Position numbers and translations under genes: made by a program. From the NCBI GenBank assembly GCA_902168115.1, contig CABHPB010000143.1:1-52812 (forward strand): a stretch of DNA of 52,812 nt, given 5' to 3'. Below, in pieces: positions 13,966-19,279 of this stretch (within the stretch, counting starts at the first letter, position 1; each line of letters begins with the position of its first letter). The DNA is from an uncultured Methylopila sp. GTDB lineage: Bacteria > Pseudomonadota > Alphaproteobacteria > Rhizobiales > Methylopilaceae. Below the pieces are notes generated by a model. The model did no database searches. It was not told the origin of the DNA and saw only the letters and a list, made by a program, of their open reading frames with translations.

Positions 13966-15138
13966 TCAGGCCGCAAGGTCGGCGGCGCTGGCGCGGCGCG
14001 CTTCGCGCTCGACGGGACGCGCCGCGCGCCAGACGTCGGCCGGCAGTTTCGCCAGATGCCAGCGGTAGATCTCGCCGAGGCGGCCGTCGCCGACGCCGTG
14101 GTTCGACACCAGCTGAAGGATGTCCGGGCCGGGGTTCCAGTTGCCCTCGATCAGCATCGGGCCGTCCGCCGACAGGCCGATGTCCCAGCCGACGACGTTG
14201 AAGCCCTCGCGGAAGACCTCGTGGGCGCGCACGGCCAGCGCCTGGGCCCCGGCGAGGTCCGGTACGCGCACGCCGCGCAGCCGTGCGCCGGTCGCCGGAT
14301 GGCGGTCGAAGCGCTCCAGCCTGCCGGCGACGCGGCGCAGTCCGAAGCGGATGCGGCCGTCGCGGTCGACGCCGGCGGCGATGTTGCCGGCGTTGAAGTT
14401 GTCGACGGCGCGCGGGCCGCCGCCATTGAGGCGGATCACGAGGCCGCAGACCTCGATCGCGCCGGCCTCGTTGACGGCCGTCATGACGCGCAACGTCGGC
14501 AGCGCGCCGGGCGAGAGCGGGACGAGGTCGGGATGGCTTTCCGCGATGCGCTGCAGGACGCCGCCGCCGGACACCGCGGCGCGGATCTTCTGGAGCGCCT
14601 CGATGGCGCCGAGAAGGACGCCGCCCGACCTCCAGCCGTCGCCTTCCCGGCGAAAACCTTCGATCCCCGCGCCCTTCGAGGCGTAGTTCGGCTTGGCGAT
14701 GACGGCCGCCTCACCGGCGAGCCAGGTTTCGAGCCCGCTCTCGGGTCCGGAAAAGTCCGGCGGGATCGGCAGGCCGGCGGCGCGGCAGCGCTCTGCGAAC
14801 AGGCGTTTGTTCTTGAGCGGGTTGGCCTGAAGCGGATAGGCGCCGGGATTGATCAGGCGGTGCATGCCCTTGCGGGCCGCCATGCCGAGATGGGCGGCGC
14901 GGTCGGGCGCGCGCTCGAACAGGCGTTCCTCGCCCTTGTCCCAGCCGTGGCGCCAGGCGGCGCGGTCGCGGAAGGCGGTGCGGGCGGCCTCGCCACAGGC
15001 GAGCGCGAGCGCCATGGCGCGGTCGGCCGTGGACCAGTGCCGCCAGAGCTGCTCGAAATAAAGCGCGGTGAGGTCGCGCGGCGCGGGCTCGGCGGCGCCG
15101 ACCAGCAGGCGCGGCGGGATGACCCGGAGCGTCAGCAT
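13966..15138 (-). CDS. Sugar-transfer-associated ATP-grasp family protein
   Basis: A 390-residue protein with ATP-grasp features: a nucleotide-binding strand [18 protein letters not shown] (about 145-162), [15 protein letters not shown] in the middle, and a metal-binding end [21 protein letters not shown] with the expected E-x-N pair. The overall pattern recalls the sugar-transfer-associated ATP-grasp group found in polysaccharide loci. ATP-grasp enzymes join a carboxylate to an amine or thiol through an acyl-phosphate; the substrates here are unknown. It is the last gene of a four-gene minus-strand run, separated by one base from the nucleotidyltransferase gene, so co-translation is likely. 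No signal peptide is visible. Confidence 0.8.
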
Positions 15139-15139
15139 A

Positions 15140-15958
15140 TTACGCCGCCTTCTGCGCCGCGCCGCGTTCCCGGCGCGCCGCGATTACCTCCTCGGCCACC
15201 TTCCTGCTGCGCTCGTGGTCGACGTCGATCGCGGTCGCGCCGTCGCTCATGATCACCGGACGCATCGCAAGGCCGAAGCGGCGCGAGAGCCGTCGAAAGC
15301 TGTCGTCGAGCCGCGTCAGGCCGTAGCGGAAGCGGACGATCTCGATCACGCCGGCGAGGCCGAAGGCGTTCACCACCCGCATCGGATGCTTCACGAACTG
15401 CCCGCCGGAGCGGAACAGCTCCGCTGGGGCGAGCGCCCTCACCGAGCCGATCCAGTAGGCGTTGCAGTTGGAGTATTCGCCGCAGGCGCAGCGATAGAAC
15501 TTGCGCTGCCCGTCCGGGTGGGCGGCGAGCACAGCCTCGCGCCGCGCCATCGCGACGGCGACGTCGGCGTCCCCGGCGCGCGCCTCGATCTCCTCGATGG
15601 AGGCGGTCGACAGCAGCACGTTGTCGGAGGTCGTGATCAGGACGGGGAAGGTGAGTCGGTCGAGCGCCGTCAGCACGCTGTCGACGAGGTTCTTCGAGGC
15701 GTCGACGACGACGAGGCGGCCGCTCGCCATCAGCGCCGCGATCTCCGGGACCTGCTCGATCTCCGAGCCTGCGTTGATCGAGACCACGATCCGGCCGACC
15801 CGCTCGCTCGCGGCGAGCGCCTCGAGCACGTGGACGACCATCGGGCGGCCGGCGACCGGCGCGAGCGACTTGAACTTCAGGCCGACCGCCTCGGCGAGCG
15901 GATCGATCGAACCTTCGCGCTGGCCGGCGAGGACGAGCGCGGAGAAGCTCCCGCTCAC
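15140..15958 (-). CDS. Nucleotidyltransferase (NTP_transferase/MobA-like) family protein
   Basis: A 272-residue protein whose N terminus fits the nucleotidyltransferase Rossmann fold: strand ALVLAGQREGS, then KFKSLAPVAGRPMVVHVLEAL, the usual lysine and GxPM motif. A later DN pair in LITTSDNVLL fits the metal-binding aspartate region. Such enzymes attach NMP or CMP groups to sugar phosphates, choline phosphate or cofactors. It starts at GTG (15958), overlapping the upstream ATP-grasp stop by four bases (GTGA). It contains several cysteines in the middle (CACGEYSNCNAYW), unusual for this fold and possibly functional. The donor and acceptor cannot be predicted. Confidence 0.8.
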   Translation of the reverse strand: MSGSFSALVLAGQREGSIDPLAEAVGLKFKSLAPVAGRPMVVHVLEALAASERVGRIVVSINAGSEIEQVPEIAALMASGRLVVVDASKNLVDSVLTALDRLTFPVLITTSDNVLLSTASIEEIEARAGDADVAVAMARREAVLAAHPDGQRKFYRCACGEYSNCNAYWIGSVRALAPAELFRSGGQFVKHPMRVVNAFGLAGVIEIVRFRYGLTRLDDSFRRLSRRFGLAMRPVIMSDGATAIDVDHERSRKVAEEVIAARRERGAAQKAA

Positions 15959-16998
15959 GCGGCGATCTCGACCGCGTTCCGGGCGATGACGCCCTGCCGG
16001 GTCATGCTGTGCGCGACGATCGACTCGACCAGCGTCGCGTGACCGACCCCGAGCGAGGCGGCCGAGCGCGAAATGCTCTTCCGGGACCAGAGATTGCAGG
16101 AGAGGTTGACTTCCATGAAGGCGAGGTCGCCGTTCTTGGGGTCGTAGCGGAACTCGAAGCGGCCGTAGTCGAAGGGCCAGAGCTCTTTCGACAGCGCGCG
16201 CGAATGCATCTTGAGCCGCGCGACAAGGATCGGGTCGTCGACGACGCTCAAGGGGTCGCTGTCCTTGACGAGCTGCGGGGTCAGCGCCCGCTTTTCCTCG
16301 TAGGACCGCATCTCGCCGGGCGTCTCCGGCGTGTGCGCCATCGGGGGCAGGAACCAGGGCGCGGCCCCCGAGCCGCCGACCACGGGCGCGGCGACGTCGA
16401 GGATCGGATGGTAGGCCTCGACGATCACGTCGTGGCCAAGCTGGTGCAGCTGCTCGACATGTCGTCGGCCTTCCGACCAGCTGTCGACGATCTTGACGCC
16501 CCAGGAGGCGGAGGAGGCGTTCGGCTTCACGACGAGCCGCTCGGCGGCGAATGTCGGCTCGGCGATCGGCAGGCCGATGCGGCAGGAGATCCAGTCCGGG
16601 GTCGGCACGCCGTGCAGGCGGGCGATCACCTTCGACAGGTGCTTGTCGTCGGCAAGGCCCCGGATGATCGGGCTCGCGCCGAGGAACGGGACGCTGCGGC
16701 GCGCGAGCATCAGCGGCGCGAGCATCTCGCTGTTCTGGAACCCGGCGCGGTTCAGCAGGGTGAAGACGAAGTCGACCTCGGGCCGCGTCTCGATCTCGGA
16801 GAAGTCGTTGGCGACGACGACGTCGAGGCCGATTTCCTCGAGCGTCGTGCGGAGCTCGTGGTGGTAGATCGCGTGATTGCCGTCGACCGGGTCGGGCGCG
16901 CCGACGCTGCGGGCGTGCTTGGCGAGCAGCATAACGCGCAGCCGGGCCTTGTCGGCCTCGGGGATCGTCGCGGGGATGAATTCGGGTCGGTCAAGCAT
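15955..16998 (-). CDS. ATP-grasp protein, D-Ala-D-Ala-ligase-like
   Basis: A 347-residue ATP-grasp enzyme. The N-terminal domain has VDFVFTLLNRAGF..SEMLAPLML and VPFLGASP, typical of the D-Ala-D-Ala ligase layout. Next come LVVKPNASSASWGVKIV (ATP-binding strand and loop) and the terminal metal-binding strand LAFMEVNLSCNLWS. This is not a housekeeping Ddl: the conserved serine/tyrosine pattern of the ligase pocket is altered, and it lies with an NTP transferase rather than with mur genes. It probably ligates a carboxylate to an amino group on a small molecule or sugar. It shares four bases with the following nucleotidyltransferase, which argues for one pathway. Confidence 0.8.
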   Translation of the reverse strand: MLDRPEFIPATIPEADKARLRVMLLAKHARSVGAPDPVDGNHAIYHHELRTTLEEIGLDVVVANDFSEIETRPEVDFVFTLLNRAGFQNSEMLAPLMLARRSVPFLGASPIIRGLADDKHLSKVIARLHGVPTPDWISCRIGLPIAEPTFAAERLVVKPNASSASWGVKIVDSWSEGRRHVEQLHQLGHDVIVEAYHPILDVAAPVVGGSGAAPWFLPPMAHTPETPGEMRSYEEKRALTPQLVKDSDPLSVVDDPILVARLKMHSRALSKELWPFDYGRFEFRYDPKNGDLAFMEVNLSCNLWSRKSISRSAASLGVGHATLVESIVAHSMTRQGVIARNAVEIAA

Positions 16999-17067
16999 GC
17001 CGCGAGGCTACCGCCGACGAATGACCCGTCGGCGACGGATCGATCACGGGAAGATGACGCGCTTACC

Positions 17068-18171
17068 TCAAGGGCGTCCGAGGCTCGCAAGGGTCCGGAC
17101 TCTGGCCGCGGTCTCCGCGAGCTCGTCCTCGGCGAGTCGCTTCAGTGATCCGCCGCCGGACAGAAGACCGTCTCGCTCAAGGGCATTCATATAGCCGGCT
17201 ATATTTCTGTTCGACCGGATCAGGCCGGCTCCGACCAGGTCGTCCAGACCCATTTTCACGCCGCCGACGGTCGCGCCGGCGTATGCGATCGCCCTCAGCG
17301 CGCGCAGACGCGCACTGGGCCGGACCGGCAGCCGGAACAGCTCGACCGGCCGCGTCGTCGCCGCAGCCTCGACGACCATGGAAACGCTGTCGTCCGTGAC
17401 GAGAAACGCTTCGGCTGAGGCGAGGAAGGTCCGATAGCGGTTCGGGCCTTCTCGGTAGAAGGAGGTTCGCACGGGAACGTCGGCGCCATGCAGCGCCGCG
17501 CGCAGCGCCTCGGCGGCGGCGCGGCCGGTGCGCGGCGAGGTCGCGACGAGCAGCGACCCGCCGGTAGTCCGGACGCGGTCGAGCGCAGTCTCGGCGAAGT
17601 CTCGCGCGACGTCCGCGTCGAGCCGTTGCGGCGGCTCGGCGCCGCCCAGGATCGCGGCGAGCCTCGGCGCAGGCAAGGCGGTAAGCTCGGGGTCGGCTCC
17701 TACGAAATCCATTGAAATCGCAGTAGCGGGAAGCCGGCAAACAAAAACGTTGGGCCGCGCCGGAAGCCCATATTGCGGCGTGGTGACGACGAGGTCGAAC
17801 CAGTCGAGCGGCGCCTGCGGCCGGCCGAGATGCACCAGCCGGGTCCGCCCGCCCGAGGCCCGGCGAATCCAGAACGCCGCGGGCACGGCGCGCTTGCCCG
17901 ACGTCACGACGACCCGCGGCCATGGCGGCGCGAGTTCGGCGCGCGACGCGCGGGTCAGGGTGAACAGCGAGCCGCCGGGAAGCGCGTTCTGCAGGGCGCC
18001 CAGCGCGTTGAAGCGCGGCCGGAGCAGGCGCGCCGGCAGGCCGGTCGCCCCGATCACGGCCTCGATCATGGCGTTGTCGCCGCGCCGGTTGCCGAGCAGG
18101 CCCCAGATCGCGGCGCCGGCTGGAGGGGTGAAGGCGATCGGGTCGTCGAAATCGGAAAAGAGGGCGGCCAT
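17068..18171 (-). CDS. ELM1/GtrOC1-family (DUF1022) protein, putative glycosyltransferase
   Basis: A 367-residue protein matching the family named after plant mitochondrial fission protein ELM1. Diagnostic blocks are [11 protein letters not shown] near the start, [37 protein letters not shown], and [21 protein letters not shown] near the end; the last resembles nucleotide-sugar binding regions of GT-B glycosyltransferases. Bacterial members are often near lipid A or polysaccharide genes, but their reaction is not established. It is the first gene of the cluster that continues with ATP-grasp, nucleotidyltransferase and ATP-grasp genes, 69 bp away. No membrane segment is evident. Confidence 0.85.
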
Positions 18172-18877: not shown

Positions 18878-19279
18878 ATGCCCGACGTCCGCTCGATGTG
18901 CGCCATCGGCCTCCGGGGCCAGATGGGCCTCCATGGCGTGCTGCCCTGGGAGGGCAACACCGAGCCGGAGTTCGTCGCCGACGTCGCGCGCTTCTTCGAC
19001 ATGACCCGCGGCCATGTGCTGATCGCCGGCGAGAAGACCATCGGCGCGATCCCCGACTTCGCGCGCCACGACAGGACCCTGTTCGTCATCCGCCGCGACA
19101 TGCAGCCCGAAAAGGTGCTGGCGCAGTTTCCGGACCGGGTGGTGTTCATCGGCGGCGGCCCGGTCGCCTGGGGCGCCTACGCGCCCTTCATCCGCCACTG
19201 GGACATCAACCGCCTGCCTTATGACGGGGAGGCCGACCGCTGGTTTGACCCGCAATGGCTCACGGCCGGCGGGCATTGA
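18878..19279 (+). CDS. Short dihydrofolate reductase-like protein
   Basis: A 133-residue protein that reads as a shortened dihydrofolate reductase. It has CAIGLRGQMGLHGVLPWEG (the DHFR N-terminal strand and LPW), GHVLIAGEKTIGAIPDF (matching the MGRkTfesip block), FVIRR and VVFIGGGPVAWGAYAPF (the GG motif binding NADPH). It ends with LPYDGEADRWFDP, like the DHFR C-terminal gDt.FP. True DHFRs are about 155-170 residues. Loops between these blocks are trimmed here and the acidic substrate-binding residue after LPW is not clearly aligned, so activity on dihydrofolate is uncertain. It is convergent with an AT-rich orphan gene. Confidence 0.75.
   Translation: MPDVRSMCAIGLRGQMGLHGVLPWEGNTEPEFVADVARFFDMTRGHVLIAGEKTIGAIPDFARHDRTLFVIRRDMQPEKVLAQFPDRVVFIGGGPVAWGAYAPFIRHWDINRLPYDGEADRWFDPQWLTAGGH

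Follow-up and report, generated by a model that had tools for sequence, protein, structure and literature searches.

A recurring four-gene cassette of Methylopila with two ATP-grasp ligases and a CpgD-related nucleotidyltransferase, possibly for an amidated envelope head group

In sphingomonads and their relatives, outer-membrane sphingolipids partly or wholly replace lipopolysaccharide (LPS), and the enzymes that build the head groups of these lipids are only now being worked out. Synthesis of ceramide-diphosphoglycerate employs CpgD, a CTP:phosphoglycerate cytidylyltransferase. In Acinetobacter baumannii, an ELM1-like protein is needed for assembly of the lipooligosaccharide (LOS) core, for the third Kdo, as described in the part of PMC10936431 that we consulted. 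Here we analyze a four-gene cassette from an uncultured Methylopila sp. that brings relatives of these proteins together with two ATP-grasp ligases; it lies in a stretch of 52,812 nucleotides (contig CABHPB010000143.1, positions 1 to 52,812 of the forward strand), hereafter the window. Our preferred reading, for which we judge the chances to be about even, is that the cassette makes an amidated, nucleotide-activated (probably CDP-linked) head group for an envelope lipid or glycan.

The four genes run on the minus strand in the order ELM1, Ddl-like ATP-grasp ligase, nucleotidyltransferase (NTP) and ATPgrasp_ST (ST) protein (Table 1). As the initial annotation had it, all four open reading frames are present, and each product exceeds the curated Pfam cut-off of its family. 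The margin is wide for the ELM1 protein (Mito_fiss_Elm1, 153.1 bits against a cut-off of 27, E = 1.2e-44) and the ST protein (ATPgrasp_ST, 116.7 against 31.4, E = 1.5e-33), smaller for the NTP protein (NTP_transf_3, 42.5 against 27) and slight for the Ddl-like protein, which barely passes (Dala_Dala_lig_C, 28.5 against 24). The curated NCBIfam equivalog cut-offs are reached by none of the four. The tight packing described earlier is likewise borne out, with the Ddl-like and NTP frames sharing the bases GTGA at their stop and start and a single base between the NTP and ST genes; a gap of 69 bases separates ELM1 from the Ddl-like gene. The identical four-base overlap is found in loci L027, L032, L033, L034, L038 and L040-L044, among others.

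Table 1. The cassette in window coordinates
Feature	Coordinates	Strand	Description
ELM1-family (PF06258) protein	17068..18171	-	367 aa, probable GT-B glycosyltransferase, first gene of the cassette
Ddl-like ATP-grasp ligase	15955..16998	-	347 aa
NTP transferase	15140..15958	-	272 aa, sister clade of CpgD-type cytidylyltransferases
ATPgrasp_ST (PF14397) ATP-grasp protein	13966..15138	-	390 aa
Four-base stop/start overlap (GTGA) of the Ddl-like and NTP genes	15955..15958	-	

The cassette behaves as a unit within its genus. Our sample of relatives comprised 61 genomes, of which 13 belong to the genus (the window's own included), 5 to other members of the family and 43 to other members of the order. 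Strong matches to the Ddl-like protein (E < 1e-160) occur in 8 of the 13 genus genomes and in none of the 5 or the 43; nine of the remaining 53 have weak matches only (best E 2.4e-31) and the others have none. In all eight carriers a window-type NTP gene, an ST gene and an ELM1 gene lie alongside, with ELM1 on the opposite strand in two of them (L028 and L035). Thus the conserved neighborhood that the initial annotation had sought across the Hyphomicrobiales holds in every carrier of the genus and does not extend through the order as sampled, and the homologs are not scattered without a conserved neighborhood, as that annotation had allowed they might be. The same four genes stand between four different sets of immediate flanking genes (window and L027; L029 and L031; L028; L035), which argues for a discrete, selected and movable module. 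On one side the window and L027 share rimP and what we take to be the nusA and IF2 genes, L029 and L031 are flanked by genes we presume to be thrS-like and to encode a CBS-domain protein, and none of ten window flanking genes is present at the L030 locus. At L035, a gene we take for IF2 lies about 7 kb off with a presumed pnp-like gene in between, and the adjoining genes differ from those of the window. In one carrier (G008, L028:10873-13072), the NTP and ST genes are each split over two frames, which may reflect sequencing error or decay.

A wider contig scan yielded 90 confirmed Ddl-like relatives. Among the best 80 of these loci, 6 belong to the genus and 74 do not, the latter mostly in the Sphingomonadales. 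Twelve non-genus loci with a Ddl-like identity of 61-65% (L032-L034, L036-L044; hereafter Sphingobium-type) carry the NTP gene in 12 of 12 cases and, directly after it, the ST homolog in 11, the twelfth locus stopping at a contig edge. Ten of the 12 have a GT4 glycosyltransferase gene with this trio and one has a MOP-type flippase; ELM1 is absent from all 12. In a tree of Ddl-like proteins the genus copies form one clade (support 0.99) beside Sphingomonas oleivorans (0.85), and group with the other Sphingobium-type copies at a support of 0.69; this topology is compatible with transfer between orders, and is neither proof of it nor a sign of its direction. Spread by plasmids finds no backing: at E 1e-20, none of 72,556 plasmid records matches the Ddl-like protein.

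Several neighbors and relatives of the Ddl-like gene were set aside. Of 289 genomes from across the class, three, among them the window's own, match the Ddl-like protein at E 1e-15. Distant relatives in G347, G103 and G047 sit in other gene contexts and are not counted as copies of the cassette; at L204:3521-6664 (G347), for instance, a pair of such ATP-grasp genes on opposite strands is set among genes that we take to be sensor-like and binding-protein-like. In Erythrobacter-type loci the neighbors, presumably rne, sdhB, zapE and asnB, look like housekeeping genes and were not counted as part of the pathway. The PALP gene found close to the Ddl-like gene in Sphingorhabdus-type loci was dropped, the copy tested exceeding the cut-off for threonine synthase. 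Counted in favor of an envelope product, on the other hand, is a MOP-type flippase gene that 10 of the 74 non-genus loci have no more than 3 kb from the Ddl-like gene. A further family, fam23, which by eye looks dependent on pyridoxal phosphate (PLP), is encoded no more than 3 kb from the Ddl-like gene at 9 of the 80 loci (for example L055:8391-9881), is on the opposite strand to it in L055 and L102, and has no meaningful match in Pfam, NCBIfam or the PDB.

The NTP protein, through its relation to CpgD, offers a new clue to the function of the cassette. The window NTP protein belongs to a sister clade of the CpgD-type proteins and lies outside the CpgD-type clade, in a tree and alignment in which that group is named by its ceramide-type neighbors and no verified Caulobacter CpgD is included. 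Searches by blastp and the tree tie it to CpgD-type genes, the majority of which lie in ceramide-type loci. The paralogs that our profile finds (26 rows used of 51 aligned NTP proteins, or close variants) are also those retrieved by blastp from the window protein on its own. Residues R14, K30 and D112 are common to both clades in an alignment of 25 window-type and 18 CpgD-type sequences, the L138 protein having been left out of either group. We compare them with R16, K26 and D112, the CpgD residues named in the available part of PMC12275187, a comparison of published positions and not an alignment to Caulobacter CpgD itself. The predicted model (pLDDT 91.7) has nucleotidyltransferases as its structural matches, 2dpw first and then GlmU and IspD; the CpgD structures of PMC13228409 are not among the PDB matches listed for it. 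The MobA likeness proposed by the initial annotation is not reflected in the MobA models (15.4 or 13.4 bits against cut-offs of 164 or 151.85), and the unusual cysteine-rich insert reported for this protein dissolves on alignment, where residues 140-200 contain no inserted column. Of its cysteines, C165 is a family position (25 of 25 window-type and 13 of 18 CpgD-type sequences), and C157 (3 of 25) and C159 (1 of 25) are local.

The window's own genome also encodes a CpgD-type NTP paralog. It lies on contig C82, about 7 kb from a serine palmitoyltransferase (SPT) gene whose product exceeds its NCBIfam cut-off (673 against 500 bits), in what we take to be a Caulobacter-like ceramide phosphoglycerate locus, with presumed acyl carrier protein (ACP), CDP-alcohol transferase and LptF/G-like genes (L137, L202; G000:C82:25000-55000). 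The cassette itself is not in this locus. A further NTP group is directly followed by a gene that we presume to be sulfotransferase-like (L141:10922-12671 and L142:9747-11541), perhaps another head-group pathway.

In the Ddl-like protein the fold of Ddl and the ATP-grasp catalytic core are retained, including the ligase residues R280, E296 and N298. It scores 49 bits against TIGR01205 (cut-off 245.65), and a separate canonical Ddl in the same genome scores 267.7 bits; together with the equivalog result above, this speaks against the possibility, raised in the initial annotation, that a cassette protein is an already characterized housekeeping enzyme. In Ddl, the motif HGxxGEDG and an N-terminal Ser/Glu loop form part of the first-substrate pocket. 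Aligned to the genome's own Ddl, the window protein has NRAGFQNSEM and DGNHAIYHHE in their place, and H42, H46, R84, R113 and R140 are invariant in 28 aligned Ddl-like relatives and absent from that Ddl. By alignment, the first-substrate region is rebuilt and rich in arginine and histidine. The best PDB sequence match of the ST protein reaches E 0.7 only.

The ELM1 gene adds a link to ceramide loci. The Acinetobacter requirement for an ELM1-like protein in adding the third Kdo favors, by analogy, a glycosyltransferase function for bacterial ELM1. In the ELM1 tree, several supports of which are low and in which the highest-scoring ELM1s form a separate group, the window protein falls in a broad clade with ELM1s encoded near CpgD-type genes (L139, L145, L152 and others). 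A second ELM1 gene of the same genome lies on C82, 13.6 kb from the CpgD-type gene and head to head with an ABC-transporter-like gene. In 12 of 13 genus genomes an ELM1 gene and a CpgD-type NTP gene share a contig and lie within 30 kb of each other (13.5-22.2 kb), the two being on different contigs in the remaining one, G011. The same holds for 8 of 29 further genomes, against about 0.7 expected from random placement; the CpgD-type identity of the NTP gene in these 29 is presumed, from neighborhoods read in 16 and by assumption in 13. Excluded from this set were G099 and G226 (sulfotransferase-linked), G303 (window-type) and G323 (by kinship only).

On the gene unit, folds, catalytic residues, paralogy and linkage that are observed here we build a scheme in which we infer every substrate, the order of the steps and the acceptor. 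The NTP enzyme would couple a nucleotide, most likely from CTP, to a small phosphorylated compound X to give CDP-X, where X probably bears a carboxylate, as phosphoglycerate does, and differs from the substrate of CpgD. The Ddl-like and then the ST ligase would activate carboxylates as acyl phosphates and join them to amines, such as amino acids, to yield an amide-linked X, a reaction that could precede or follow nucleotide activation. The sugar that carries or receives the unit would come from a GT-B glycosyltransferase (ELM1 in Methylopila-type cassettes, GT4 in Sphingobium-type ones), and the product would end on an envelope lipid or on a core or surface glycan. Ceramide is a candidate acceptor, given the ceramide-phosphoglycerate-type locus of the genome and the ELM1 and CpgD-type paralogs there. 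The exchange of ELM1 for GT4 between lineages is what one would expect of a specific trio combined with whichever glycosyltransferase suits the local acceptor. The envelope conjugate proposed in the initial annotation is thereby strengthened, through the CpgD-related NTP protein, the linkage of ELM1 to ceramide loci and the GT4 gene beside the Sphingobium-type trio; the amino-acid or peptide decoration it also suggested is read from the enzyme families only. A bolder version of this scheme, which we regard as unlikely, is a new class of envelope lipid, based for example on ceramide, whose phospho-acid head group would bear an amide-linked aminoacyl or peptidyl cap; the genes would be a horizontally moved module that Methylopila-type methylotrophs and sphingomonads have in common. 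Here the sister enzyme of CpgD would charge a new CDP-acid and the two ATP-grasp ligases would extend the acid; coenzyme F420, which carries glutamates on a phospho-acid, serves as the model.

A number of observations weigh against synthesis of an activated, amidated head group, or against the evidence for it. The four genes include neither a gene for a lipid-acceptor step (kinase or CDP-alcohol phosphotransferase) nor a transporter. The NTP clades differ at positions 113, 164, 168, 182 and 186, and because several conserved positions are affected the CpgD substrate cannot be carried over to the window enzyme on the strength of sequence. In addition, the 26 rows from which the NTP profile was built include one (L072:4445-5227) that proved to be of the CpgD-type group. 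Away from the genus and the Sphingobium-type loci, the Ddl-like gene is often alone: of these 62 loci, 33 have NTP within 3 kb, 3 have ST, 9 a flippase and 9 the PLP-like family, and none has ELM1 or GT4, counts in which contig ends are not discounted. Two of the four cassette sites, those of the window and L035, are both near the nusA-infB region. ELM1 proteins are widespread in the class (231 of 289 genomes), the clade of the window ELM1 includes copies far from a CpgD-type gene or on other contigs (L219, L220, L221), and the C82 copy is not its closest relative. Beyond the 13 assumed assignments, the ELM1 linkage counts are non-independent, and the nominal P of 2e-7 is too small since the 8 linked genomes fall in 5 families.

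Among the alternatives, the likeliest is decoration of a polysaccharide: a sugar acid in a capsule, exopolysaccharide or LPS core would be amidated by the trio, the NTP enzyme would make the nucleotide-activated sugar and ELM1 or GT4 would transfer it, with no lipid head group involved; we hold this to be possible, at rather low probability. In its favor, the glycosyltransferase is the variable fourth member, and Pfam names PF14397 "Sugar-transfer associated ATP-grasp". An ATP-grasp domain of Campylobacter jejuni amidates capsule glucuronic acid, according to the consulted part of PMC11800379, and the A. baumannii protein acts in LOS core assembly. However, the NTP protein is closest to the CpgD type and scores far under the cut-offs of the GlmU, KdsB and IspD models (24.2 bits against 181.3 for IspD), although GlmU and IspD are its next structural matches after 2dpw, and no polymerase or sugar-modifying gene was recognized beside the cassette at four loci whose flanks were judged by eye.

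A soluble small molecule, akin to a cofactor or antibiotic, appears unlikely as the product. The logic would be that of F420 synthesis, which pairs CofC activation with amide ligation: an activated phospho-acid is transferred and amino acids are added by ligases. CofC gives weak matches to the cassette NTP protein (15.2 bits, cut-off 105), and tandem Ddl-like genes occur in 6 of the 80 loci. On the other side, in both lineages the trio has a glycosyltransferase-type gene beside it, and the four genes include no exporter, regulator or resistance gene.

We consider still less probable a phosphoramidate path like that to the O-methyl phosphoramidate of Campylobacter, in which an ATP-grasp enzyme would phosphorylate an amide nitrogen and the NTP enzyme make a CDP-phosphoramidate. 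The Campylobacter phosphoramidate kinase is an ATP-grasp enzyme of another type, and the Ddl-like protein retains its ligase residues, which count against this path; a cytidylyltransferase-family relative that uses phosphoglutamine (PMC12275187, in the part available) counts for it. Finally, that the genes are unrelated chance neighbors is very improbable: the strand and presence of ELM1 vary and many of the other 62 loci hold only the Ddl-like gene or the pair, but the four-gene set recurs with four flank sets in one genus and the trio recurs in another order, so that co-occurrence exceeds chance.

In its immediate surroundings, a Pfam scan of the window places rimP downstream of the cassette and an HbpS-like gene upstream on the plus strand, and further recognizes DHFR-like, FUSC and YcxB-like genes. 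The DHFR-like open reading frame is short (18878-19279, 133 aa; PF00186, 19.8 bits, under the cut-off of 25) and has a homolog of 95% identity in L027.

Every cassette protein belongs to a known fold or family, and it is the combination, and the clade of the NTP protein, for which no description was found in the open-licence literature, an absence that carries little weight. In the same literature, the phrases searched returned no paper on ATPgrasp_ST, and none that joins Caulobacter, ceramide and ATP-grasp; two of three papers on CDP-glycerate, in the parts consulted, make no mention of ligases. The recurring trio of a CpgD sister and two amide ligases is a concrete gene set with which to look for an unseen lipid or glycan, and through the cassette the bacterial ELM1 family, of which little is understood, gains a connection to sphingolipid loci.

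Set beside described systems, the cassette resembles each in part. The capsule amidoligase of Campylobacter jejuni, the C-terminal domain of Cj1438, is likewise an ATP-grasp enzyme and forms an amide on a surface glycan, but it is a TupA-like ATP-grasp domain fused to a GT2 domain (PMC11800379, as far as consulted), and the comparison is one of description and not of sequence. The ELM1-like glycosyltransferases of the Acinetobacter LOS outer core share the Pfam family of the window ELM1 and core sugar addition there needs such a protein (PMC10936431, in the portion available), whereas their gene neighbors differ and the likeness is one of family only. With Ddl the window ligase has in common the fold and the ATP-grasp catalytic residues, R280 and E296/N298 among them, and it departs from Ddl in its low TIGR01205 score and in the replaced GEDG-type and N-terminal first-substrate motifs. 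CpgD is related through a sister clade, through the catalytic Arg/Lys/Asp positions and through the CpgD-type paralog in the SPT locus of the same genome; unlike CpgD, the window enzyme belongs to a separate clade, and its cassette has ligases and contains no SPT, ceramide kinase or Lpt gene.

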